Origin: a virus | Strand: one strand, 5' to 3' | Length of the DNA stretch: 20,851 bases | Virus record (IMG/VR): IMGVR_UViG_3300042924_003824 | Span: 1 to 20,851 of that record | Shown here: one piece after another, positions 6,764 through 17,117 of the stretch | How the letters are laid out: the number at the start of each line of letters is the position of its first letter | How positions within the stretch are numbered: the first letter of the stretch is position 1 | Notes under the pieces: model-generated | What the model saw: the letters and a program-made list of their open reading frames with translations, nothing else | Told to the model about the DNA's origin: nothing | Database searches by the model: none | Position numbers and translations under genes: made by a program

Positions 6764-7636
6764 ATGGCAAATCAAAGACTTACAGAATCTCTCTCTGATT
6801 TAAATGCAATCGCTGATAGCATGGAATCAATCGTAAAGCTCGCTGGCTTTCTCACTGCTGGCACCAATTGGAATGCACAGCAACTTGTCACAGCCTACCT
6901 ATCTTATGGTATGATGCATGGTTGGAATATCGCCCAAACTATGGAAAAGATGAATGTCATTAAAGGCAAGATCACCTATCAAGCTTCTGCTATGTTTGGC
7001 ATTGTGATTGCTTCTCCCAAGTGCAAGTCATGGAAAGTTCTCTCAAATACTGATGATGAATGCTCAATTGAATTTACAAGAGGCGATAACAATCAAAAGT
7101 ATGTAGTCACCTTTACGATCGCAATGGCACAAAGACAAGGCTTAACAAGTAATCGTCAATGGCAAAACATGCCAAAGCAAATGCTTATGGCAAGATGCAA
7201 GAGCATGGCAGTCAGAGATGTGTTTGGCGATGTGATCAGCGGCTATGATGCAATTGAAATGGCTGATAGCATGGATATGCCCGAAGATGAAAGACTAGAA
7301 ATCTTGAGTCAAGAGCTTGACACTCCAATCTATGCTGAGAGACAACCTGTGGCAAGAGCAAAGCAAGGCGTCAAGGCTGGAGCTGATACAAAAGCAAAGC
7401 CTTTGCAAGTGCAACCTGTGCAAGTTCAACCAGTGCAACCAGTACAAGTTCAACAGTCAGCACCGCCAAAGACTCAAGCACCACCTGATCAAACTTCACT
7501 ATTTCCAAGCGATCAAAAGAAAGCCGTTGAGTATCAATCTTATAGAGATCAAGATATGAAAATTCATCAATGGAAGGATGCAGATATGGATGAAGATGAT
7601 TTGAAGGATTGGAAAGACTCGTGGAGTATTAAATAA
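6764..7636 (+). CDS. RecT-like single-strand annealing protein
   Basis: A 290-residue protein. Residues 1-175 resemble RecT/Bet-type phage recombinases, which anneal complementary single strands during recombination and replication. The clearest block is WQNMPKQMLMARCKSMAVRD (133-152) followed by VFGDVISGYDAIEMAD (153-168), the family's conserved end. The region 200-250 is a Gln/Pro/Val linker with a QVQPVQ repeat (215-231), and the tail is acidic and ends KDADMDEDDLKDWKDSW (271-287), reminiscent of SSB tails that dock partner proteins. AAGGA precedes the ATG. No partner exonuclease is visible in the window; the small genes just upstream are candidates only by position. Its stop overlaps the convergent ribonucleotide reductase gene by 8 bp. 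Confidence 0.8.
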   Translation: MANQRLTESLSDLNAIADSMESIVKLAGFLTAGTNWNAQQLVTAYLSYGMMHGWNIAQTMEKMNVIKGKITYQASAMFGIVIASPKCKSWKVLSNTDDECSIEFTRGDNNQKYVVTFTIAMAQRQGLTSNRQWQNMPKQMLMARCKSMAVRDVFGDVISGYDAIEMADSMDMPEDERLEILSQELDTPIYAERQPVARAKQGVKAGADTKAKPLQVQPVQVQPVQPVQVQQSAPPKTQAPPDQTSLFPSDQKKAVEYQSYRDQDMKIHQWKDADMDEDDLKDWKDSWSIK

Positions 7637-9569
7637 GACAGACACCACCAGCACAAGCTGGTTCAACAGATGGATTTTCTTTATAGCCACCTACATTTAA
7701 ATCAACCTTAGACCAATCGACCAAGAGCAATTTATTATATTTTTCAAGTATTTGCTCATTATCTTCGCTAACTGTTTGATAAGGTGCATTCTCATAAACA
7801 TGATCACCATAATCGGATAAAAGAGAGATACCTTTAACACTATCTCTAAGACGCCAAATCTTATTTATAAGATCATCCCATTCATCATCTTTGACGGTGC
7901 AAGTATTGGATACATTATGACTTAATCCATATTGATCTTTTTCTCTAAGTTGTGTTGTAGTCTTGACCCAATATCTCTGAATAAATTCAACCTTATCCAA
8001 GAAATCAGATGCTGATAAATCTTTTCTAAGCAATGCACCTTCAGGAGCTTCACAAGCAAAAGAAACGATGCCAACTTGAGGATCTCGATCATCACAAACT
8101 TCAGGGATCTTATTTAGTATCTCTTGCCAAATAGGATTGATCTTATTTATTCTCATCGTTCTGATGTACTTTTTAGCATGGTATGGATGAATACCAGCTG
8201 AACAGCCAGCAACGGTTGAGCTGTTGCCTGATGGTTTAACGGTGGTACATCTTAGAGCTGAATTGATATTGATCAACTTTGCGATCTCAACATTTTTATC
8301 ATGTACCGCTTTCGAGCATTGCTTTAAAGTCATCTCATCAAAGATCATGTTTGGATTGCTCATGATGCCTGTCATAGAGACACCTAAGAGAGCATCTCTC
8401 TCAATGATCTTTTTAGTTGTCTCTCCAAGATAGCCTGTGTTTGTGTAGCTTGCTTGAAGTGTACCTAAGAAAGCCGCCGCTTTGCATGCTTGCAAAAGAT
8501 GATCAGCATCTCTCACTTTGGCAACAACAATTTCATTTAAGTTACAGACCGCCCAACCACTTGAGACATTGCCTTGATCGTCTTTGAATGTTGGATATAA
8601 ACCAATTTCGCCGCATGGATTTGTAGAAAATTCTCTATCGTAGCAAAAGAAGAAACCTGGTTCACCATATTGGCGAGCATTGGCGATGATGTCAGTAAAT
8701 ACAGATTTATTCTCAAAACCATCTAGCAAGATTTGAGCTGATATATTTGCATAAGCTCGTTGGGGGTTGTCTTGCCACCATGTGCCCGTTTTGGCTGTCA
8801 TCATCTCTTCATCATCAGGAGAGAAGAGAGCAATTGTAGCCGCTCGTCTTGAGCTCAAAAGTGCTGCGTGGCTTATGTGCATAAACATATCAAAGCATTG
8901 AATTGGCTTGAGTCTTGATTGACCTTGATTGACGGCTTGATCAAGAATAAATCTCACCTTTTCAATAGCCACCTCTAGCACTTTTGGACCAGGTGCAACA
9001 CCACCAATGGAGATAGATGCACCTTCAGGCCTTACTTGATCATAATGAAAGCTGATGCAATGTTTTGCTTCATCTTCATTTGATGGAAGATAACTTTTAG
9101 TGAGCACATGAATTGCTTCAGCCCAACCTTCGATTGAGTCCTCAATGACATGCACCAAGTTTAAGCGATTGTCTCTCTGATCTTTTGTGATGAGATTTGG
9201 CAACTTGTCAACATGATGCTTTTGTACCGAAAAGCCAACACCACAACCGCTCATCAAAAGCCAAAAGCCTTCAGCAAAAAAGCGAACACGATCGACATAC
9301 GAGGCGGTGCAATTATACATTCTCATATTGTTTCTTTTAATAGCAATACCACCGAATTGAGTTGATCTTTGAGATGGAAACACAACACCTGGAAAGACAA
9401 AGCCTTGAAAGATTGCCTCAATTTGTGTCCATAGATTTGGGAATTTCTCTTGATGCATTTGCTTGACTCTTGTCATTGCATCTATATAAGTTTCTCTCTT
9501 GCCATCTTTTTTGATGTGAGAATATTGAGTAGCAAAAGCAACTTTTCCTAAGATTTCATTTTGTGCCAT
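7629..9569 (-). CDS. nrdJ: Class II (adenosylcobalamin-dependent) ribonucleotide reductase
   Basis: A 646-residue enzyme that reduces ribonucleotides to deoxyribonucleotides using a cobalamin-generated thiyl radical. The active site matches monomeric class II reductases: MYNCTAS (C87, one of the redox pair), STNPCGE (N317, thiyl-radical C319, E321) and AVCNLNE (C342, the other redox Cys). The SGCGVGFSVQ block (107-116) is also typical. The tail ends ACAGGVCLI, a Cys-x4-Cys pair that would re-reduce the active site. It is shorter than the well-known Lactobacillus enzyme (about 740 residues). I chose the ATG at 9569 because GGAG lies six bases upstream; ATG 9581 is an alternative. It lies last in the leftward late operon, 42 bases after the holin candidate, unlike most early-type nucleotide genes. 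It needs cobalamin from the host and no radical-generating partner subunit. Confidence 0.93.
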   Translation of the reverse strand: MAQNEILGKVAFATQYSHIKKDGKRETYIDAMTRVKQMHQEKFPNLWTQIEAIFQGFVFPGVVFPSQRSTQFGGIAIKRNNMRMYNCTASYVDRVRFFAEGFWLLMSGCGVGFSVQKHHVDKLPNLITKDQRDNRLNLVHVIEDSIEGWAEAIHVLTKSYLPSNEDEAKHCISFHYDQVRPEGASISIGGVAPGPKVLEVAIEKVRFILDQAVNQGQSRLKPIQCFDMFMHISHAALLSSRRAATIALFSPDDEEMMTAKTGTWWQDNPQRAYANISAQILLDGFENKSVFTDIIANARQYGEPGFFFCYDREFSTNPCGEIGLYPTFKDDQGNVSSGWAVCNLNEIVVAKVRDADHLLQACKAAAFLGTLQASYTNTGYLGETTKKIIERDALLGVSMTGIMSNPNMIFDEMTLKQCSKAVHDKNVEIAKLININSALRCTTVKPSGNSSTVAGCSAGIHPYHAKKYIRTMRINKINPIWQEILNKIPEVCDDRDPQVGIVSFACEAPEGALLRKDLSASDFLDKVEFIQRYWVKTTTQLREKDQYGLSHNVSNTCTVKDDEWDDLINKIWRLRDSVKGISLLSDYGDHVYENAPYQTVSEDNEQILEKYNKLLLVDWSKVDLNVGGYKENPSVEPACAGGVCLI

Positions 9570-9611
9570 GATCGTCTCCATGTGAAAGGGATGATCATTA
9601 AAACACAATTC

Positions 9612-9858: not shown

Positions 9859-10236
9859 TCACCCTTGCCATCTTGCTCTTGTGCCTCTGATATCATAATG
9901 CACAAAATTGGAATCTAGATATTTACCAAGACCGCCCTCTTTGATCTTGCCTTGAGCAATGAGTTTCTCAATTCGATTGTAGATCTCTTCAGTTGGCACA
10001 CCAGCGATCTTGATATCAGCCGCCTTTGCATGCAAATGTTGGGATTTATCAGCACCTCCAACTTGAGCATTTCTAGCAGGTGAACGATAACCGCTTATGA
10101 TGATAATAGGCTTCTGAAAATGATCTCTGATGATTTGAAGATTTTGCAAAAGCTCAACGGCGTTGGCTACTAGTTCAGGAGGAATTGCATCTGAAAATTC
10201 GAGTTCAGACAATTTAAAATTTTTTGTTACTTGCAT
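9859..10236 (-). CDS. M15-family peptidase, probable endolysin
   Basis: A 125-residue zinc peptidase of the M15A type, a group that cuts peptide links in peptidoglycan (D-Ala-D-Ala or L-Ala-D-Glu). It starts QVTKNFKLSELEFSD, the usual N-terminus of these phage enzymes. It then shows ISGYRSPARN (47-56), SQHLHAKAAD with zinc ligands H67 and D74, and FVHYDIRGTR with zinc ligand H113. No signal peptide is present, so export would need a holin, and a candidate follows at 9854. GGAG precedes the ATG at 10236. It follows the adhesin genes in the leftward operon. It is a catalytic domain alone, with no separate wall-binding domain. A virion-associated role is possible but the position next to a holin candidate favours lysis. 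Confidence 0.88.
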   Translation of the reverse strand: MQVTKNFKLSELEFSDAIPPELVANAVELLQNLQIIRDHFQKPIIIISGYRSPARNAQVGGADKSQHLHAKAADIKIAGVPTEEIYNRIEKLIAQGKIKEGGLGKYLDSNFVHYDIRGTRARWQG

Positions 10237-10237
10237 G

Positions 10238-10759
10238 TTATCTCCAAGCCTTGATAAGGATGTGGCATCTAAAATTAGTGTTACCTGCATCTTGCGATAC
10301 ATTCAAACCCCCGCTAGCCCCGCCCCCAATCTTAATCACTCGGATTTTAAAGATAGTTGATGCTGATGATGAATCAGCATAAAATATGCATTTTTCTTGA
10401 GCATAGGCATAAGCTGAATCTCGATAGATGGCTATTGATCCAGTTGATGAAATTTGATTGTTTGATGTATCTGTCGCAATATATTGAACATTTTCGCCCG
10501 CTGATGGAGATGTATCAGTAACTTTCATTTTTAGTTCAATCAAATACTTCCAACCAGCTTCAAGCGTAATCGTAGACGGTGATGCGGCTGTTGTTACCGT
10601 TGGATATCCAATGGATGATGCAATTTGAACGGTGGTAGGTACTGCGCTAGGAATAAAAATGTTAACATCTTCATAAGAGCCTGTAATCGTTTGAATCCCT
10701 TGAGTGTGAATAGCTGAAATAGCCATATTTATTTTTTTTTCAGTTGAAAAATAGCTCAT
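10238..10759 (-). CDS. Small beta-rich tail adhesin candidate (third of three)
   Basis: A 173-residue protein starting MSYFSTEKK. Its core, TITLEAGWKYLIELKMKV, then an alternating polar/hydrophobic run with TSNNQISSTGSIAIYRDS and STIFKIRVIKIGGG, looks like an all-beta jelly roll of the C1q/TNF-like kind used as phage receptor-binding heads. It ends FRCHILIKAW. The ATG at 10759 overlaps the stop of the gene before it (ATGA) and follows GGAGG; an inner ATG at 10726 is possible. The ITLEAG block is shared with the protein encoded at 11136-11513, so the two are probably related. No enzymatic motif is seen. The fold assignment is by pattern, not by search. Confidence 0.7.
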   Translation of the reverse strand: MSYFSTEKKINMAISAIHTQGIQTITGSYEDVNIFIPSAVPTTVQIASSIGYPTVTTAASPSTITLEAGWKYLIELKMKVTDTSPSAGENVQYIATDTSNNQISSTGSIAIYRDSAYAYAQEKCIFYADSSSASTIFKIRVIKIGGGASGGLNVSQDAGNTNFRCHILIKAWR

Positions 10760-11139
10760 TGAATCCTCCAATATGCACTGATAAAAGACGAGTTTGCAAC
10801 TGAAAAAGACCCTGATCCCGTTGTTGAGGATTGAGCTGAAATTGTTGTACCAGGTGTATTTGAGGCAATCCAAAGATCATCAGTCATGGTTAAAGTTCCT
10901 GTCACTGAGTTCCCTCTTATAGTTGCACCCGCCCATTGAAAGCCAGTCCAATTATAATATAAAATCAAACCACTTCCACCCGTTACCGTTGCCATTAGTC
11001 TTGACTCAATAAAATATTTGTTTCTTGACGCAAAGCTTGTGCTTGTGCTGACTGTGATGTCATCGCTAAGAGTAACCCCCCCGTTTATGTCAATTTGCAC
11101 CGCCCTTGCGCCTTGTGCTTGTGATGGATCATAGCTCAT
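10756..11139 (-). CDS. Small beta-rich tail adhesin candidate (second of three)
   Basis: A 127-residue protein starting MSYDPSQAQGARAV, rich in Ser, Thr, Gly and Ala with alternating hydrophobic residues, as in beta-sandwich virion proteins. It ends SSFISAYWRIQ, an aromatic-Arg ending similar to LQLWRFPL and GWRIE in the proteins encoded beside it. It has no cysteine-rich, enzymatic or membrane segment. The ATG at 11139 overlaps the previous stop by 4 bp and follows GGAGG, so translation is coupled within a three-gene set. The position after the fibre gene suggests a fibre-tip or accessory adhesin. I recognise no specific family. Confidence 0.68.
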   Translation of the reverse strand: MSYDPSQAQGARAVQIDINGGVTLSDDITVSTSTSFASRNKYFIESRLMATVTGGSGLILYYNWTGFQWAGATIRGNSVTGTLTMTDDLWIASNTPGTTISAQSSTTGSGSFSVANSSFISAYWRIQ

Positions 11140-11513
11140 AAAGGAAACCTCCACAATTGAAGTCTTGAATTGCTAGTAACGGCTTGATCTGCATAGAGAG
11201 AAAAAGCGACTGATGCATCAGCTTGAATTGATGATGTATTCTCATCAAGTCCTGATGTAGTTGATGTGGCTGTGACTGTGTAGGATGTTTGATCAACTCC
11301 ATCAATAATGTGTTTATAGGTGGTTGTCGTGCTTACCGTTGGAGTACTCACTACGAAATATTCAAAGCCTGCTTCTAGTGTGATTACATCGCTTGCTATG
11401 GATGGAGTAAAATCACCATTAACAAATGAAAATGCAACATTGCCCGCTGATGCAGATGAAAAAGAACAGATCGCAAGTTGTGGATTTACATTTCTAGCGA
11501 CATTATAACTCAT
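11136..11513 (-). CDS. Small beta-rich tail adhesin candidate (first of three)
   Basis: A 125-residue protein starting MSYNVARNVNPQ. The segment VITLEAGFEYFVVSTPTV matches TITLEAGWKYLIELKMKV of the 173-residue protein encoded at 10238-10759. Its C-terminal half (ADASVAFSLYADQAVTSNSRLQLWRF) also parallels that protein. This is the layout of a compact jelly-roll head domain. The ATG at 11513 shares one base with the stop of the fibre gene (TAATG) and follows GGAGG, so it is coupled to the fibre. It could be a separately encoded fibre-tip module or a capping protein that trimerises on the fibre. The role is inferred. Confidence 0.7.
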   Translation of the reverse strand: MSYNVARNVNPQLAICSFSSASAGNVAFSFVNGDFTPSIASDVITLEAGFEYFVVSTPTVSTTTTYKHIIDGVDQTSYTVTATSTTSGLDENTSSIQADASVAFSLYADQAVTSNSRLQLWRFPL

Positions 11514-13957
11514 TATTCAATCCTCCAACCCGCTGAAGTTGCTGTAAGAGTGACTGATGAATTTTGCAAAGACAATGCAAAAGTTAAAGCTCCATCAATT
11601 GTCTCGCTTGCATTGGCGTCAAGTGTTGCTGTGCCTGTTCCAAGTAACTTGAAAACAAGCTCTAAGCCGTCATTTGATGCTACTGCTGGCAAGTTGATGG
11701 TTACCGCTGATGATCCATTGTTGATGTAGTATTTTCTCTTGATAACGCCTGTATAATCAACGCTACCAAGATTTAAAGGAAAAGATGATTCGGTGCTATA
11801 TGTTGGCCTTGATGCACTTGTGCCTGTTGCGGATATTTGACCCCCAACAATACTGATACCTGTTCCAGCTGTGTAGTAGGCTTTCACTGATGAAACTGAT
11901 GGAGCTTGATCAGTTTCAGATCCACCCATTGAATTTACAACTGATGCTGCTTTAGCTAGTGCATCAGTGTATTGAGTGATTGTTGTGGCAATTTGACCAG
12001 TTGTTATTGTGATCCCTGTTCCAGCACTAAAAGCATTTCTCGCAAGTGTATCTGAGAAATATTTGTTGGTTGTGCCTTCAGTTAAATTATCAGTGGTCTT
12101 TGTTGCCAAGCGTGTATCAAATGCTGAATTAACTCTTGTACTTGTATAATAAAGGTTAGTTGATCCTTCGCTTAAATTATCAGTTGTTTTTGTTGCAAGC
12201 CTATTATCAAAGCGGGTGTTAGTATAATAGAGATTGGTTGATCCTTCAGTTAAATTGTCAGTTGTTAATGTAACATTGCCAGCAATTGGAGAAACTGAAT
12301 TGACTGAATTGACCGCCCCTGCATTGGCTGAAACATAGCTTTTCATCGCCGCTACTGATGGAGCTTGATTGGTTTCAGTGCCTGATGTGCTATTAACAAC
12401 GGCGGCCGTTCTTGCTAGTGTATCGGTGAAGTATTTATTTGTTGATCCTTCTGAAACATCATCTGTATCAAGTGAAACTGTACCTGTTTGACCATTAACG
12501 GAAACAACGGCACCACTTACACCAAAGGCAACCCATGCACTGCCATCATAGATCCAAGATGATGAATCATCAGTTTGTATAGCAACATCGCCTTCTTGAG
12601 CAACTAAAGCGAGTCTAGCGGCTTCATCAGCTACTACATGCACATCAGTTATCGCTAAAGGTGGCAAGTGATTGGTTGGCACAAGTCCATTTGCATCAAG
12701 CTCGCAAATCCCATTGTTTGCACCTTTTTGAAGAGTGATTCTAGCATCAGCATCTGTGTCAGTGTATTGAGTGATGGTTGATGAAATTTGACCACTAGAA
12801 AGAGCAATCCCTGTGCCTGCTGTGTAGTAAGCTTTGACTGATGAAACTGAAGGAGCTTGATCAGTTTCAGACCCTGCCATTGAGTTTACAACTGATGCAC
12901 TTTTAGCAAGTGAATTTGTAAAATAAAGATTTGTTGAGCCTTGAGTTAAATTGTCAGTGGTCTTTGTTGCCAAGCGTGTATCAAATCTTGAATTTGTATA
13001 AAATAGATTTGTTGATCCTTCAGTTAAATCATCGCTTGAGGTTGGGATTGTTGGCTTGTTTCTGAGCTCACTATATGATCCACTAAACGAGGTTGATAAG
13101 CCGTTATTCAGATCATAAACATAACTATCAGAGTTTTGATATTGCACGACCGATCCACTATTAAATCCAGTGCGACCGACCAATACGACATTGCTTGTTA
13201 AGTTGGCTTGCAAAGCATTAACGCCGCTACATTCAGTCAAGATTGTCAATAGTGGAGACCCCGCCCCTGATCTTGATGAAGTGACAAATTGATTTCCCAA
13301 AGCGCAACGATCAAAATAAACGGTTGCTGTCACATTTGACGCAATGGAAATACCGCCAGCAAAAGAGCATTGCTCAAAAGTGATAAAGTTGGCGGTTGCA
13401 TTGTTGATTGTAACGGTACTATCAAAGATCACATTTTTAAAATAGTGTCTCCCTTGAGTACCATTGATTAAGAGTGCACCTTCAACATTGATATTATTCA
13501 TTCTAACTCGTGTTGTGCTTGCTCCTGATATGGTCAAGCCACGAGATACAAGCTCGCAAATATGAGCAGTTGTTGGATGTTGAGGCCCTATGATATCCAT
13601 TCCACTAGGTGCATCACTGATTGTCAATGTTGATCCACTATAAGACCCCGCTGACATATAAATGGCATAAGCTCCATTTCCTCCAGCAATTGCATCAACA
13701 ACGGTTTGAATGTCATTTACACCCTCATTCACATAATAGGAATTGGAATAGAGAGTCTTGCTTTGTACTGTATCAAGAGAGGTTTGATCAGCCTTAGCAT
13801 CTAAATCAGTTTGAAGAGCTGAAGTGAAATATTGACGATCAGCATTTGATCCAGCATCAATATTATCAGTTGTTAAGACAACAACGCCTGTCTCTCCATT
13901 CACTGAATCAACAGCACCACCACCACCACTCACAGGAGGTTTAATGATAATAGCCAT
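11513..13957 (-). CDS. Tail fibre protein with beta-helix and repeat shaft
   Basis: An 814-residue tail fibre. Residues 1-40 hold a Gly-rich stretch and VNGETGVVVLTTDNI, a common phage-fibre motif that recurs at about 486 and 555. Residues 75-290 look like a right-handed beta-helix (YAIYMSAGSYSGSTLTI, then repeated short turns), a fold often used for binding or cutting polysaccharide; no catalytic residues can be assigned. Residues 310-640 carry six DNLTEGSTNLYYTN-type repeats of the fibre shaft, interrupted by a W-x-YDG-x-AW segment (about 455-478). Residues 715-814 form a C-terminal beta domain ending TATSAGWRIE, typical of fibre tips. Long internal duplications are described separately. 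The ATG at 13957 follows AAAGG. It should mediate host recognition. Confidence 0.88.
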   Translation of the reverse strand: MAIIIKPPVSGGGGAVDSVNGETGVVVLTTDNIDAGSNADRQYFTSALQTDLDAKADQTSLDTVQSKTLYSNSYYVNEGVNDIQTVVDAIAGGNGAYAIYMSAGSYSGSTLTISDAPSGMDIIGPQHPTTAHICELVSRGLTISGASTTRVRMNNINVEGALLINGTQGRHYFKNVIFDSTVTINNATANFITFEQCSFAGGISIASNVTATVYFDRCALGNQFVTSSRSGAGSPLLTILTECSGVNALQANLTSNVVLVGRTGFNSGSVVQYQNSDSYVYDLNNGLSTSFSGSYSELRNKPTIPTSSDDLTEGSTNLFYTNSRFDTRLATKTTDNLTQGSTNLYFTNSLAKSASVVNSMAGSETDQAPSVSSVKAYYTAGTGIALSSGQISSTITQYTDTDADARITLQKGANNGICELDANGLVPTNHLPPLAITDVHVVADEAARLALVAQEGDVAIQTDDSSSWIYDGSAWVAFGVSGAVVSVNGQTGTVSLDTDDVSEGSTNKYFTDTLARTAAVVNSTSGTETNQAPSVAAMKSYVSANAGAVNSVNSVSPIAGNVTLTTDNLTEGSTNLYYTNTRFDNRLATKTTDNLSEGSTNLYYTSTRVNSAFDTRLATKTTDNLTEGTTNKYFSDTLARNAFSAGTGITITTGQIATTITQYTDALAKAASVVNSMGGSETDQAPSVSSVKAYYTAGTGISIVGGQISATGTSASRPTYSTESSFPLNLGSVDYTGVIKRKYYINNGSSAVTINLPAVASNDGLELVFKLLGTGTATLDANASETIDGALTFALSLQNSSVTLTATSAGWRIE
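11865..12913. repeat. Imperfect DNA duplications inside the fibre gene
   Basis: The segment at about 11865-11963 recurs at about 12815-12913 with most bases identical, and a more diverged third copy lies at about 12334-12425. In the protein they encode the NSMGGSETDQAPSVSSVKAY-type block at about 673-694, 357-377 and 520-541. Shorter repeats encode the DNLTEGSTN units. Such repeats can recombine and change fibre length or specificity. Confidence 0.7.
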
Positions 13958-13958
13958 G

Positions 13959-14339
13959 TTAAACAACCTTTCTATTGAATGCACAAATCAATTTTAGATC
14001 ATCACCACTTGCCCCTTTTTTATAGGCAATAGTTGTGATTGCACCGCCCTTTGTACCACCGCATTGAATATCAATAGCACCACCAGCCAAAACAAAAATT
14101 TCATTTGTTGTACTATCTGATGAAGTAGTACGAGCACGAAGTTTAAAGAAGGCTGTTGATGTTCCTGGATTATAGACGCTGATGTCACAAAAAGCGAGAT
14201 CTGCATCAAGTGCTGATCCTGTTGTGCTATCGATGAAATCGCTTGAGTTTAGATCAGTCCAATCAGTGGATGCGTTGGATGCTGTACTTTTGCAAGCGAT
14301 AAATTCGCCCGTTTGAATTTGGTATTGTAGACGGTTCAT
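13959..14339 (-). CDS. Small virion structural protein before the fibre gene
   Basis: A 126-residue, Ser/Thr/Gly/Ala-rich protein starting MNRLQYQIQTGEFIACKS. It contains alternating hydrophobic stretches (FFKLRARTTSS, EIFVLAGGAIDI, ITTIAYKKGAS) expected to form a beta sandwich. Three cysteines are present and no enzymatic motif. Its ATG overlaps the stop of the 53-residue gene by 4 bp, and its stop lies one base from the fibre start, so all three are coupled. The location between the tail-hub candidate and the fibre suggests a connector, fibre-attachment or decoration protein. No family is recognised. Confidence 0.72.
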   Translation of the reverse strand: MNRLQYQIQTGEFIACKSTASNASTDWTDLNSSDFIDSTTGSALDADLAFCDISVYNPGTSTAFFKLRARTTSSDSTTNEIFVLAGGAIDIQCGGTKGGAITTIAYKKGASGDDLKLICAFNRKVV

Positions 14340-14497: not shown

Positions 14498-17117
14498 AGA
14501 TAAAACTCCTATCTATATAAGCTCTTTTAGTATGATGAGATTGAGCATTTAAGTATGTTGTAGGTTGGATGATGCCACCCGCTGACATACCATGAGTGGC
14601 TGTAAATGTGATTTGATTTCCGTTGATGGATGCAATGGTCTTTGTCAAGACGGTCGCTTCTGATCCTTGTAAAACATAATCAACGATATCGCCAACCTTA
14701 AAATAATTGATATCAGCATCTGAGTAAAAATCAGCCTCAATCTCAATTGTGGTTGTATTGATGATTGTAGCAATCTTTGCTGATGCATTCCAAGATGGAG
14801 AGGAATCGCCCAAATGAATTAGCTTCAATTCAGTGCCTTCTCCCATAAGATCGATGCTGATTGATTGCACCATAGCGATCTTATCTGATACTCCATAAGC
14901 ATCAGTATAACCCTTGAGAAATGCACTAGTGATTTTTAGATATGATCCAACATCTAAAGCAAGGCCTTTGCCTGTGCCAATAGAGAGATGCCACATTCTA
15001 ACGGCTTGACCATACAATCTGAAAAGCCTTGCATAGGTAGGCAAAAAGTTTTCTAAGAAATCGCTTGCATTTGTCCCGCCCAAAATATCGCTAGTGATGC
15101 CATATAAATCAAGCTCCATTGATTTCGTTTCACCAGCTAGTCGATTGATTGCATCATAATTATTTACGATTCTAGTGGTTGGCTCTTCTTGATGCATGTC
15201 ATATCTGAATTTGAATTGAGTTACGATATCTTCAAAGTTTGACCAATATGGAGGCTTGCTTGCTAGAAAATCGCTATCTGATAAAGCCGTTTGGTCTTCA
15301 TCAGCTTCATGTCCCAAGAGTACTAAAGAGATACGAGGATTAAAGCTATCTCTATTCATGACAATACATGCACCCATTGTCTTGAGCATTGGATCAAGTA
15401 TCTCTCTTAAAGTGAGCTCATCAGCTGGTAAAGAGAACATCCAATCAGTGATACCTGATGCACTATTCAAGCTCAAAAATGATTGCTCATCAATCATACT
15501 TGCATTTAGATTGCACCCCGTTAATTGAAGATCATAAGCTCCATTAATTGCACCACCTCCACCACTTTCAAGCAACTGTAAAATAACTTCACCCGCTGGT
15601 CGTCTAGTGATAATCATTCCCTTTGAAATCTCTATTGGAGAGCCTTCACCAAGCCAATCGCCAAAAGGTGGCAACCTTCTATTTTCTGAGATAGTCATAT
15701 CAAGATGCAAGAGATATGCACCGCCTAAATCTTCTTCATGTGTAGCTAGTGCATTAACTACATCTTCTCCAATTTTAATTTGTATTGCATAGAGATTGCC
15801 ATCTGCTTCTGTTGGCAAGCCTAAAGAGTCTTGAATTAAAATATAAGGTTCGTCTCTATCTCTCCAACCTAAAGCAAATCCTCGAATGTCATAGAGAGCT
15901 GGATCAGCACCACCAAAGGGAAATTCTGTCACCGTAAATTTTAAGCCTAAATCTGATTGATAAACTCTATCATCTGTCTTTTCTCTTATTGGAGCTAAAG
16001 AGCCTAAAAAGCTGATACCAAATGAATGAGCTTGTGGATCAAATGCAATATAAGGCAAAGGCACATCAAAGGCAAATTGCTCATTGCTTGCTTGTATGAG
16101 CAAATCAGAGTTATCGGAAAACACTAAAGCATCATCAAAGCCAAGAGTTTGAGATACTCTTAAAACATATCGTCCACTTCTCTTTAAAATAGCAAACGGA
16201 CCGCTAGGAAAAGTTGCACCATAATCATTGATCGTCTTGATGATCTCATCATGTGTTTTTAAGCCATTGCCTAAAGTTAATGGATACCATCCATAAGCTG
16301 AGAAATTCGGTACTCTAAAGACGAGAGGTGATAACTGATTTCTGATATCTCCATAATAGTGGACGCCTTGAGCCAATCTAGTTTTCTGAGTACCTGAAGA
16401 GACCTTATTGTCAAGCATGGCAGTTATAGGCAAGATTGAGATTGACACTGAATTTAAGCCTTCAATCGTTGGAGAGCTTTCTATGATACCTTGAAAAATG
16501 ATCTGATTGTCCCAAGTGTTGCCGTTCTGATCAACTGAGCAAGCATAGATTTTGGCTTGCCTACCTCTCCAAGATACCAATTCACTTGAAACTATAGGCG
16601 TATCAGTACCGCCCAAATATATCTGATGTTGTTGTCTAAATCCCAAGCGGTGAGTAGTCGTTATTGTATAGATGCCACCGCTCTCAGATTGGGAAGTACA
16701 ATAAAAGCTCTCTGATCCAATATGCAAGAGATGTGGATAAGTCACTGATGGATTGCTATCAACTACTAAATCAGGAGTATCATCAGACCTTAAAACATTT
16801 GCAACAAGTTGACCATTCCAAATCGAGCTTGATCTTGATAGACGGCTAAAAATGACATGTGGATCTATGCTTGATCCTCTCATTCTATCCATAGCCAAAG
16901 AGATTGAGATTGGCTGATATGTGGCAACTCCGCCGCTAGGTTCTATTTCCGCTTGATATGGAGTGATTGACTGAATGCAATCTAAATCAGTATATGAAAG
17001 ATCATAAAGGGATGATGCTGTGAATGGATTTGCTCCCATATAAAAGCGAGTCATTAAGCCTTGTATCTCCAAGCCAAAGACTCGATAACCTTGATCATCT
17101 TGCAATTTAAAAGCCAT
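14490..17117 (-). CDS. Large tail tip/hub protein candidate
   Basis: An 875-residue protein, the largest complete gene here. Its N-terminal third is beta-rich and contains VTYPHLLHIGSESFYCTSQS (about 125-144), then a TTHRLGFRQQHQI block. This resembles the xIGxE...RGxxGTxxxxH segment found in phage baseplate and tail-tip proteins. The middle part has repeated beta segments (for example LDNKVSSGTQKTRLAQGVHY), and the C-terminal part has hub-like motifs (TEGTELKLIHLG-type run near 775) and ends AYIDRSFIYE. No peptidase or lysozyme motif is seen. It lies downstream of the tape measure and two or three tail-tip genes and upstream of the fibre, the usual place for a central hub or host-recognition tip. 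AAGGAG precedes the ATG, which shares one base with the previous stop. Exact family unknown. Confidence 0.7.
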   Translation of the reverse strand: MAFKLQDDQGYRVFGLEIQGLMTRFYMGANPFTASSLYDLSYTDLDCIQSITPYQAEIEPSGGVATYQPISISLAMDRMRGSSIDPHVIFSRLSRSSSIWNGQLVANVLRSDDTPDLVVDSNPSVTYPHLLHIGSESFYCTSQSESGGIYTITTTHRLGFRQQHQIYLGGTDTPIVSSELVSWRGRQAKIYACSVDQNGNTWDNQIIFQGIIESSPTIEGLNSVSISILPITAMLDNKVSSGTQKTRLAQGVHYYGDIRNQLSPLVFRVPNFSAYGWYPLTLGNGLKTHDEIIKTINDYGATFPSGPFAILKRSGRYVLRVSQTLGFDDALVFSDNSDLLIQASNEQFAFDVPLPYIAFDPQAHSFGISFLGSLAPIREKTDDRVYQSDLGLKFTVTEFPFGGADPALYDIRGFALGWRDRDEPYILIQDSLGLPTEADGNLYAIQIKIGEDVVNALATHEEDLGGAYLLHLDMTISENRRLPPFGDWLGEGSPIEISKGMIITRRPAGEVILQLLESGGGGAINGAYDLQLTGCNLNASMIDEQSFLSLNSASGITDWMFSLPADELTLREILDPMLKTMGACIVMNRDSFNPRISLVLLGHEADEDQTALSDSDFLASKPPYWSNFEDIVTQFKFRYDMHQEEPTTRIVNNYDAINRLAGETKSMELDLYGITSDILGGTNASDFLENFLPTYARLFRLYGQAVRMWHLSIGTGKGLALDVGSYLKITSAFLKGYTDAYGVSDKIAMVQSISIDLMGEGTELKLIHLGDSSPSWNASAKIATIINTTTIEIEADFYSDADINYFKVGDIVDYVLQGSEATVLTKTIASINGNQITFTATHGMSAGGIIQPTTYLNAQSHHTKRAYIDRSFIYE

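Follow-up and report, generated by a model that had tools for sequence, protein, structure and literature searches.

Genes behind the tail fibre

The window, by which the whole stretch of DNA analysed is meant, is an entire IMG/VR fragment of 20,851 bases of viral DNA. On its minus strand lies a tail fibre gene directly followed by three small genes, here called A, B and C, with the following arrangement in the order of transcription:

13959-14339, minus strand: small protein of 126 aa (MNRLQY...), directly upstream of the fibre and slowly evolving
11513-13957, minus strand: tail fibre gene, 814 aa (open reading frame and translation), ending in GWRIE
11136-11513, minus strand: gene A, 125 aa (MSYNVAR...LWRFPL), predicted first small tip protein
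10756-11139, minus strand: gene B, 127 aa (MSYDPSQ...YWRIQ), predicted second small tip protein
10238-10759, minus strand: gene C, 173 aa (MSYFSTE...KAWR), predicted third small tip protein
9859-10236, minus strand: M15 peptidase, endolysin-like (Pfam Peptidase_M15_3, E 4.3e-22; phrog_894 endolysin, E 3.2e-34)

The PHROG matches of the fibre gene include phrog_2952, a minor tail protein (E 5.5e-14), and phrog_14726, a tail fiber protein (E 5.4e-5), and in alignments its C-terminal residues, about 95 in number, form a conserved tip domain (...SETIDGALTF...GWRIE). C exceeds A and B by 46-48 residues. The M15 endolysin gene that comes after C is a neighbour and lies outside the tip. The MNRLQY protein, unlike the products of the variable genes downstream of the fibre, is 75-98% identical to the window's copy where compared, and is probably a fixed tail part that does not belong to the variable cassette. 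A long gene at 7629-9608, whose product ends in ACAGGVCLI and which we take to resemble a B12-dependent ribonucleotide reductase (RNR), has a homologue beside the lysis genes in 12 of the 15 records compared, the window included.

The four genes from the fibre to C are tightly joined. The fibre stop and the start of A have one base in common (TAATG), the A/B and B/C overlaps measure four bases each (ATGA), and a GGAGG stands 5-8 bases before the ATG of A, B and C, in each case within the last codons of the upstream gene. The MSY starts, the GGAGG sites, the overlaps and the shared base had been pointed out in a first-pass annotation of this DNA, and all of them are borne out by the sequence. 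The same annotation had also drawn attention to the aromatic-Arg endings of the fibre and of the small proteins as a sign of kinship. Such endings do exist, as the termini of the fibre, A, B and C consist of W-R and at most three further residues, but the codons concerned double as ribosome sites:

11522-11526, minus strand: GGAGG of A, inside the TGG-AGG (W-R) codons of the fibre (11522-11527)
11148-11152, minus strand: GGAGG of B, inside the TGG-AGG (W-R) codons of A (11148-11153)
10765-10769, minus strand: GGAGG of C, inside the TGG-AGG (W-R) codons of B (10765-10770)
10241-10245, minus strand: GGAGA of the M15 endolysin, inside the W-R codons of C (TGG-AGA)

With A, B, C and the fibre tip as queries, 19 records with A-B-C were collected, the window included; several of these are near-identical, and about a dozen distinct lineages are represented. 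Endings and junctions were counted in 13 of the 19, six close copies being omitted (G003, G004, G007, G013, G014 and G017). A GGAG or GGAGG at most 16 bases before the ATG and inside the upstream gene is found at 13 of 13 A-to-B junctions, 13 of 13 B-to-C junctions and 12 of 13 fibre-to-A junctions. The arginine codon after the terminal tryptophan is AGG in 11 of 13 A endings, 12 of 13 B endings and seven of 12 fibre endings, and AGA in the rest; one further fibre ending reads W-Y-I-E, and C ends in W-R (TGGAGA) in six records and in W-K (TGGAAA) in seven. None of the 44 W-R endings uses CGN. The share of AGG among arginine codons is 10.6% in the 12 other genes of the window and 12.4% in open reading frames of at least 250 aa at the loci of 12 relatives, and AGG follows an internal tryptophan in 1/7 and 0/12 cases. 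The binomial chance of AGG in 23 of the 26 A and B endings is 2.5e-18, a descriptive figure given that the records are related. Because TGG-AGG contains the GGAGG of the next gene, the W-R endings are of no use as evidence of common descent and were rejected as such, although W-R may matter to the protein as well. They serve as a warning that a protein motif common to neighbouring genes can be a translation signal. A ribosome site embedded in the last codons of the preceding gene would also help to keep the amounts of the subunits matched.

A fixed trio that diverges rapidly

Profiles built for the three proteins recover exactly one A, one B and one C, in the order A-B-C, in 18 of 18 records, the window included, one contig (G017) ending inside C. 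The nineteenth record (G018, locus L067) was reached via the fibre tip alone and contains A (E 1e-44), B (E 2e-28) and C (E 9.5e-53). B is likewise present in records that were found via A alone (G015 and G017), C alone (G011) or the tip alone (G018). Since the 19 records were found through these same genes, the point is that no record has one member without the others. A comparison of the number and sequence of these genes among relatives, as proposed in the first-pass annotation, thus returns one copy of each gene together with fast divergence.

The association with the fibre is equally regular. The fibre-tip search confirmed 335 loci, and among the 80 of these that were listed the trio stands behind all 16 close tips (at least 66%), C being cut in one of them, and behind none of the 64 weaker tips (at most 55%), eight of which lie on sequences that end no more than 500 bases after the fibre. 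Two records with close tips and the trio (G006 and G011) are absent from those 80. Prokaryote genomes yielded four weak fibre-tip loci, none of them followed by the trio (one ends at the fibre, within 500 bases), and no relative of C. The trio was found directly behind a fibre with the same tip domain in three different backbones. This constancy of place, together with the count of 16/16 close against 0/64 weaker tips among the 80 of 335 loci listed, speaks against a role of the trio elsewhere on the virion, for instance as decoration or baseplate components that merely share an operon with the fibre; such a role is very improbable, even though the placement of the three proteins is itself deduced and spore-coat and capsid proteins use the fold predicted for C (see below) as well.

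A tblastn search of 50,697 phage records with a cut-off of E 10 left A and C unmatched and gave three chance-level matches for B (E 4-8). An 875-aa tail protein of the window, present in 11 of the 19 records, has no match there either, so that, with A, C and this protein unmatched, the phage group appears to be unexplored. The fibre tip is matched in four of the 50,697 records at 33-40% identity, the fourth being the same phage as the third; of the other three, one ends just behind the fibre, one (MW202458.1) has two small genes and one carries the domain in a non-terminal position. The two small genes of MW202458.1 (L138:4226-5036), of 139 aa with an MTY start and of 129 aa, follow a fibre that matches the tip weakly, and three is thus not a universal number. 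At four further loci (L070, L105, L113 and L134) a single small or collar-domain protein is placed directly behind the fibre. At two of these (L070:4210-4902 and L105:4247-4720) it is a collar-domain protein (PF07484, E 3e-24 and 2e-22) that comes directly after a fibre with a tip domain of the same kind and represents another tip on its own gene.

The trio evolves faster than its surroundings. Over the 28 pairs formed by the eight records having all ten genes, mean pairwise identity is 0.56 for A, 0.49 for B and 0.55 for C, compared with 0.69 for the tail protein (last 250 aa), 0.84 for the MNRLQ protein, 0.88 for the fibre start, 0.78 for the fibre tip, 0.85 for the endolysin, 0.75 for the holin-like protein and 0.78 for the RNR-like protein. 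Between the window and G015, A, B and C are 46-49% identical and their neighbours 80-97%. A divergence so much greater than that of the neighbours is as expected of a host-recognition module. Within each protein the ends tend to be better conserved than the middle: circular shifts gave an equally high value in 5 of 125 cases for A (the real one included), 16 of 173 for C and 21 of 127 for B, a pattern that is suggestive for A and weak for B and C. The last 12 residues of A, with a pairwise identity of 0.77, are the most conserved end of the trio.

The trio has also been found in a phage of another kind. G005 encodes a baseplate wedge protein and the sheath of a contractile tail (E 7.5e-42), a backbone other than that of the window, and in this record, which is a fragment, the 875-aa tail protein of the window has no match. 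Its A, B and C are nevertheless 87%, 88% and 88% identical to those of the window, with the fibre tip at 71%. The corresponding dS values are 0.57, 0.52 and 0.50, with dN/dS 0.14 for each; dS is saturated for several of the pairs compared. These similar values are consistent with transfer of the three genes as one block, and the low dN/dS indicates purifying selection on all three. In G005 (L048/L049) the near copy of the trio follows a different fibre and stands beside another endolysin (about 48% identical) and a small extra gene.

The first-pass annotation had suggested that A, B and C allow one virion to carry several adhesins. Three alternative adhesins, each on its own fibre and each with its own specificity, would account for the fast divergence of all three and for the homology of A and C (see below), and phages with several receptor-binding proteins exist (PMC11414711). 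Alternatives should, however, be gained, lost and shuffled singly, and instead 19 records agree in the number of copies, the order and the identity of the three genes, all of which recur together at 87-88% identity in the unrelated phage G005. This constancy suits one composite tip better than it does alternative adhesins, which are distinctly improbable.

Several fibre units per phage do seem to be real in G011, a record of 34,805 bases without a match to a sheath or to the 875-aa tail protein of the window, but each unit there consists of a fibre and three small proteins. When open reading frames of at least 75-80 aa are considered, three such units follow one another in L050:12579-17400 and L033:1583-5507:

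Unit 1 (L050): short fibre at 12579-13076 with three small genes, then a holin-like gene (called by position and length) and an endolysin
Unit 2: short fibre at 15496-16065 with three small genes
Unit 3: short fibre with A, B and C

Neither of the first two trios shows detectable similarity to A, B or C, and the best family match of their members is no stronger than E 0.025; tblastn with a fibre and two small proteins of these other units found no match among the 50,697 phage records. This recurrence of three, seen in one record, is the main hint of a trimer made from three gene products and could be a coincidence.

Kinship of the small proteins and the predicted fold of C

The motif ITLEAG-x-x-Y, noticed in two of the proteins in the first-pass annotation, belongs to A (VITLEAGFEY) and C (TITLEAGWKY), and the similarity of these two goes beyond chance. 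With the C profile, all 12 A sequences exceed the 99.9% level set by 2000 shuffles, seven of them outscoring every shuffle, and with the A profile nine of 12 C sequences exceed the 99.9% level; the match of the C profile to the window's A covers positions 35-114 of the C model and so extends beyond the motif. Searches of whole records recover A with the C profile in six of 18 (E 4e-5 to 1.2e-3) and C with the A profile in two of 18 (E 0.0035 and 0.005), and hhalign gives a probability of 78.9% for A-C, 22.4% for B-C and 0.25% for A-B. Taken together, the profile scores against shuffles, the hhalign result and the whole-record matches identify A and C as homologous at the sequence level. For B, the A profile on B, the B profile on A and the C profile on B each place none of 12 sequences above the 99.9% shuffle level, and the B profile on C one of 12; its similarity to A is accordingly not significant and that to C only marginal. 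Between the last 95 residues of the fibre and the three small proteins hhalign found no homology, no probability exceeding 2.9%. The proposal that the cassette arose by duplication and divergence is hence supported for A and C, while B lacks significant similarity and a usable model.

Family searches gave little. The window's A, B and C have no match in PHROGs, and among nine members of each protein the best E values are 0.0054 for C (one member, to a tail protein family), 0.024 for A and 0.052 for B. In Pfam the sole match of the window's proteins is that of A to the fibre-tail adaptor Gp77 (E 0.31, far short of its cut-off), and the best match of the nine C members is to an unrelated enzyme (E 0.015); neither the window's three proteins nor the nine C members match the C1q/TNF sequence families of Pfam. 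The collar domain PF07484 was not detected in the window's A, B and C in Pfam, nor were the gp38 adhesin families in PHROGs and Pfam at E up to 1. A sequence search of solved structures returned nothing for B and C and chance-level matches for A (best E 0.034).

AlphaFold2 produced an all-beta model of C from five aligned sequences, with a pLDDT of 61.8 overall, about 80 in several core stretches and below 50 at residues 11-39 and 146-160. The best Foldseek match of this model is the bacterial TNF-like lectin 9ib7 (E 1.9e-4, TM-score 0.39 by query), in a list that also contains unrelated beta proteins. VIA-align superposes the model on 4-1BBL (Z 10.4), on cyanophage A4 9k09_A (Z 10.3, rmsd 3.6, 145 residues) and on the short tail fibre of cyanophage A-1(L), 8ke9_A (Z 10.0, rmsd 3.6, 143 residues). 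TNF/C1q structures span residues 1-173 of the model with Z up to 10.4, against the 7-8 that the tool deems common; BclA, BxpB and VP2, which are spore-coat and capsid proteins, are also among the structure matches. Among predicted viral structures, C finds matches in giant-virus proteins with a C1q domain and in phage proteins, one of them a tail fibre protein from Synechococcus phage S-RIP1. C is thus predicted, with middling model confidence, to adopt a two-sheet TNF/C1q-like jelly roll over its whole domain. The model of B (pLDDT 49.9) is too poor for use; its Foldseek list holds many TNF-family chains, the best at E 0.43.

These results also bear on the proposal that the three proteins act on the fibre as chaperones or as transient caps instead of forming its receptor-binding part, like Tfa-type proteins and the fibre chaperones of Alteromonas phages. 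Such chaperones too follow fibre genes and are transferred along with the fibre among distant phages (PMC10579305). However, no fibre-assembly or Tfa-type chaperone family is matched by A, B or C in PHROGs or Pfam, the model of C has the fold of receptor-binding tips, and in G005 the three proteins are closer to those of the window (87-88%) than is the fibre tip (71%). Three chaperones in succession would, moreover, be unusual, and the proposal is improbable.

A proposed composite tip and its known counterparts

The model of C, the fixed place behind the fibre, the fast divergence and the near copy in G005 support the view, already put forward in the first-pass annotation, that A, B and C look like separately encoded fibre-tip proteins. 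The preferred explanation, to which a probability of roughly 60% is assigned, is that they are obligate components of a single receptor-binding tip on the end of the trimeric tail fibre encoded directly upstream. The three proteins would be translated together and would then assemble into one tip on the fibre, presumably itself a trimer, where they would bind to the host surface while seated on the conserved domain at its C-terminus.

How the parts are arranged is a more tentative matter. The favoured arrangement, held at somewhat less than even odds, is 1:1:1, with one A, one B and one C forming a single pseudo-threefold head, just as the A, B and C chains of C1q do. It is favoured by the fixed trio, by the fast and block-wise evolution and by the occurrence of the block in an unrelated phage, as well as by the recurrence of threes in G011, the trimer-forming fold predicted for at least C and the precedent of DSLV2, a virophage in which the products of three consecutive tail genes are reported to co-purify as a heterotrimer, 1:1:1 according to its authors (PMC12724248). 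Against a heterotrimer of like-folded chains stand the absence of significant kinship between B and A and the unusable model of B, and the 46-48 additional residues of C fit a stack or a division of labour equally well.

In a stack, three homotrimers would be piled up, A on the fibre tip, B on A and C on B, with contact to the host left to the outermost one or two. The fixed gene order with A adjoining the fibre, the greater length and last position of C and the well conserved end of A (0.77 over its last 12 residues) agree with such a design, and TNF-like domains commonly homotrimerise. A stack predicts, on the other hand, that the outermost protein is the most variable, and the lowest mean identity is that of B, the middle one; the threes in two further G011 units, whose proteins have no detectable similarity to A, B or C, are explained more directly by a trimer. 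The stack is regarded as unlikely. A fuller version of the 1:1:1 arrangement, in which a homotrimeric fibre ends in a heterotrimeric C1q/TNF-like head and the three-gene unit is exchanged between tail types, is possible and is advanced with more reserve than the arrangement itself. If true, a heterotrimeric head would offer the host three faces or clefts that differ from each other and are not copies of one.

Several known systems share part of these features. Like A, B and C, the tripartite tail proteins of DSLV2 are encoded by three consecutive small genes that are positionally conserved in relatives, an attachment role being presumed for the trio; they differ in having the collar domain PF07484 and a gp37-like fibre fold, and in being carried on a virophage capsid instead of standing behind a tailed-phage fibre (PMC12724248). 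The cyanophage structures 8ke9 from A-1(L) and 9k09 from A4, as well as gp24 of Pam3, contain a jelly roll like that modelled for C at a receptor-binding fibre end; in Pam3 the TNF-like domain is part of the fibre chain, one gene giving a homotrimer (PMC9608196), in contrast to the three separate genes here. The gp38 protein of T2-type phages and S16 is a separate, hypervariable receptor-binding tip that docks by its N-terminus on the gp37 trimer (PMC12892980). A, B and C resemble gp38 in being encoded separately and directly behind the fibre, but gp38 is one protein with a glycine-rich PGII sandwich, whereas here there are three proteins without a match to the gp38 families.

C1q-domain receptor-binding proteins of metaviromic islands likewise occur near phage fibres and are hypervariable between close relatives; they are described as single proteins, and the accessible parts of the two reports mention no fixed trio (PMC3909814, PMC7468147). 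The host recognition modules of Alteromonas phages are, like the trio, small modules common to morphologically distinct phages, but they comprise a fibre and one chaperone or cap with an alpha-helical body (PMC10579305), as opposed to three proteins of which C is modelled as all beta.

C1q-like receptor-binding proteins beside fibres, TNF-like fibre domains, separate tips and the sharing of recognition modules are therefore already known. Among the matches listed in a search of open-licence papers, no three-gene heterotrimeric tip was found in a tailed phage, and as far as the literature was searched the new element is the fixed three-gene tip, as predicted here, behind a tailed-phage fibre. 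To our knowledge, phage fibre tips have been thought of as homotrimers, or as homotrimers with one added adhesin. A tip made of three different subunits, if true, would break that symmetry, would let each subunit change separately and would constitute a ready-made three-gene unit of host range.
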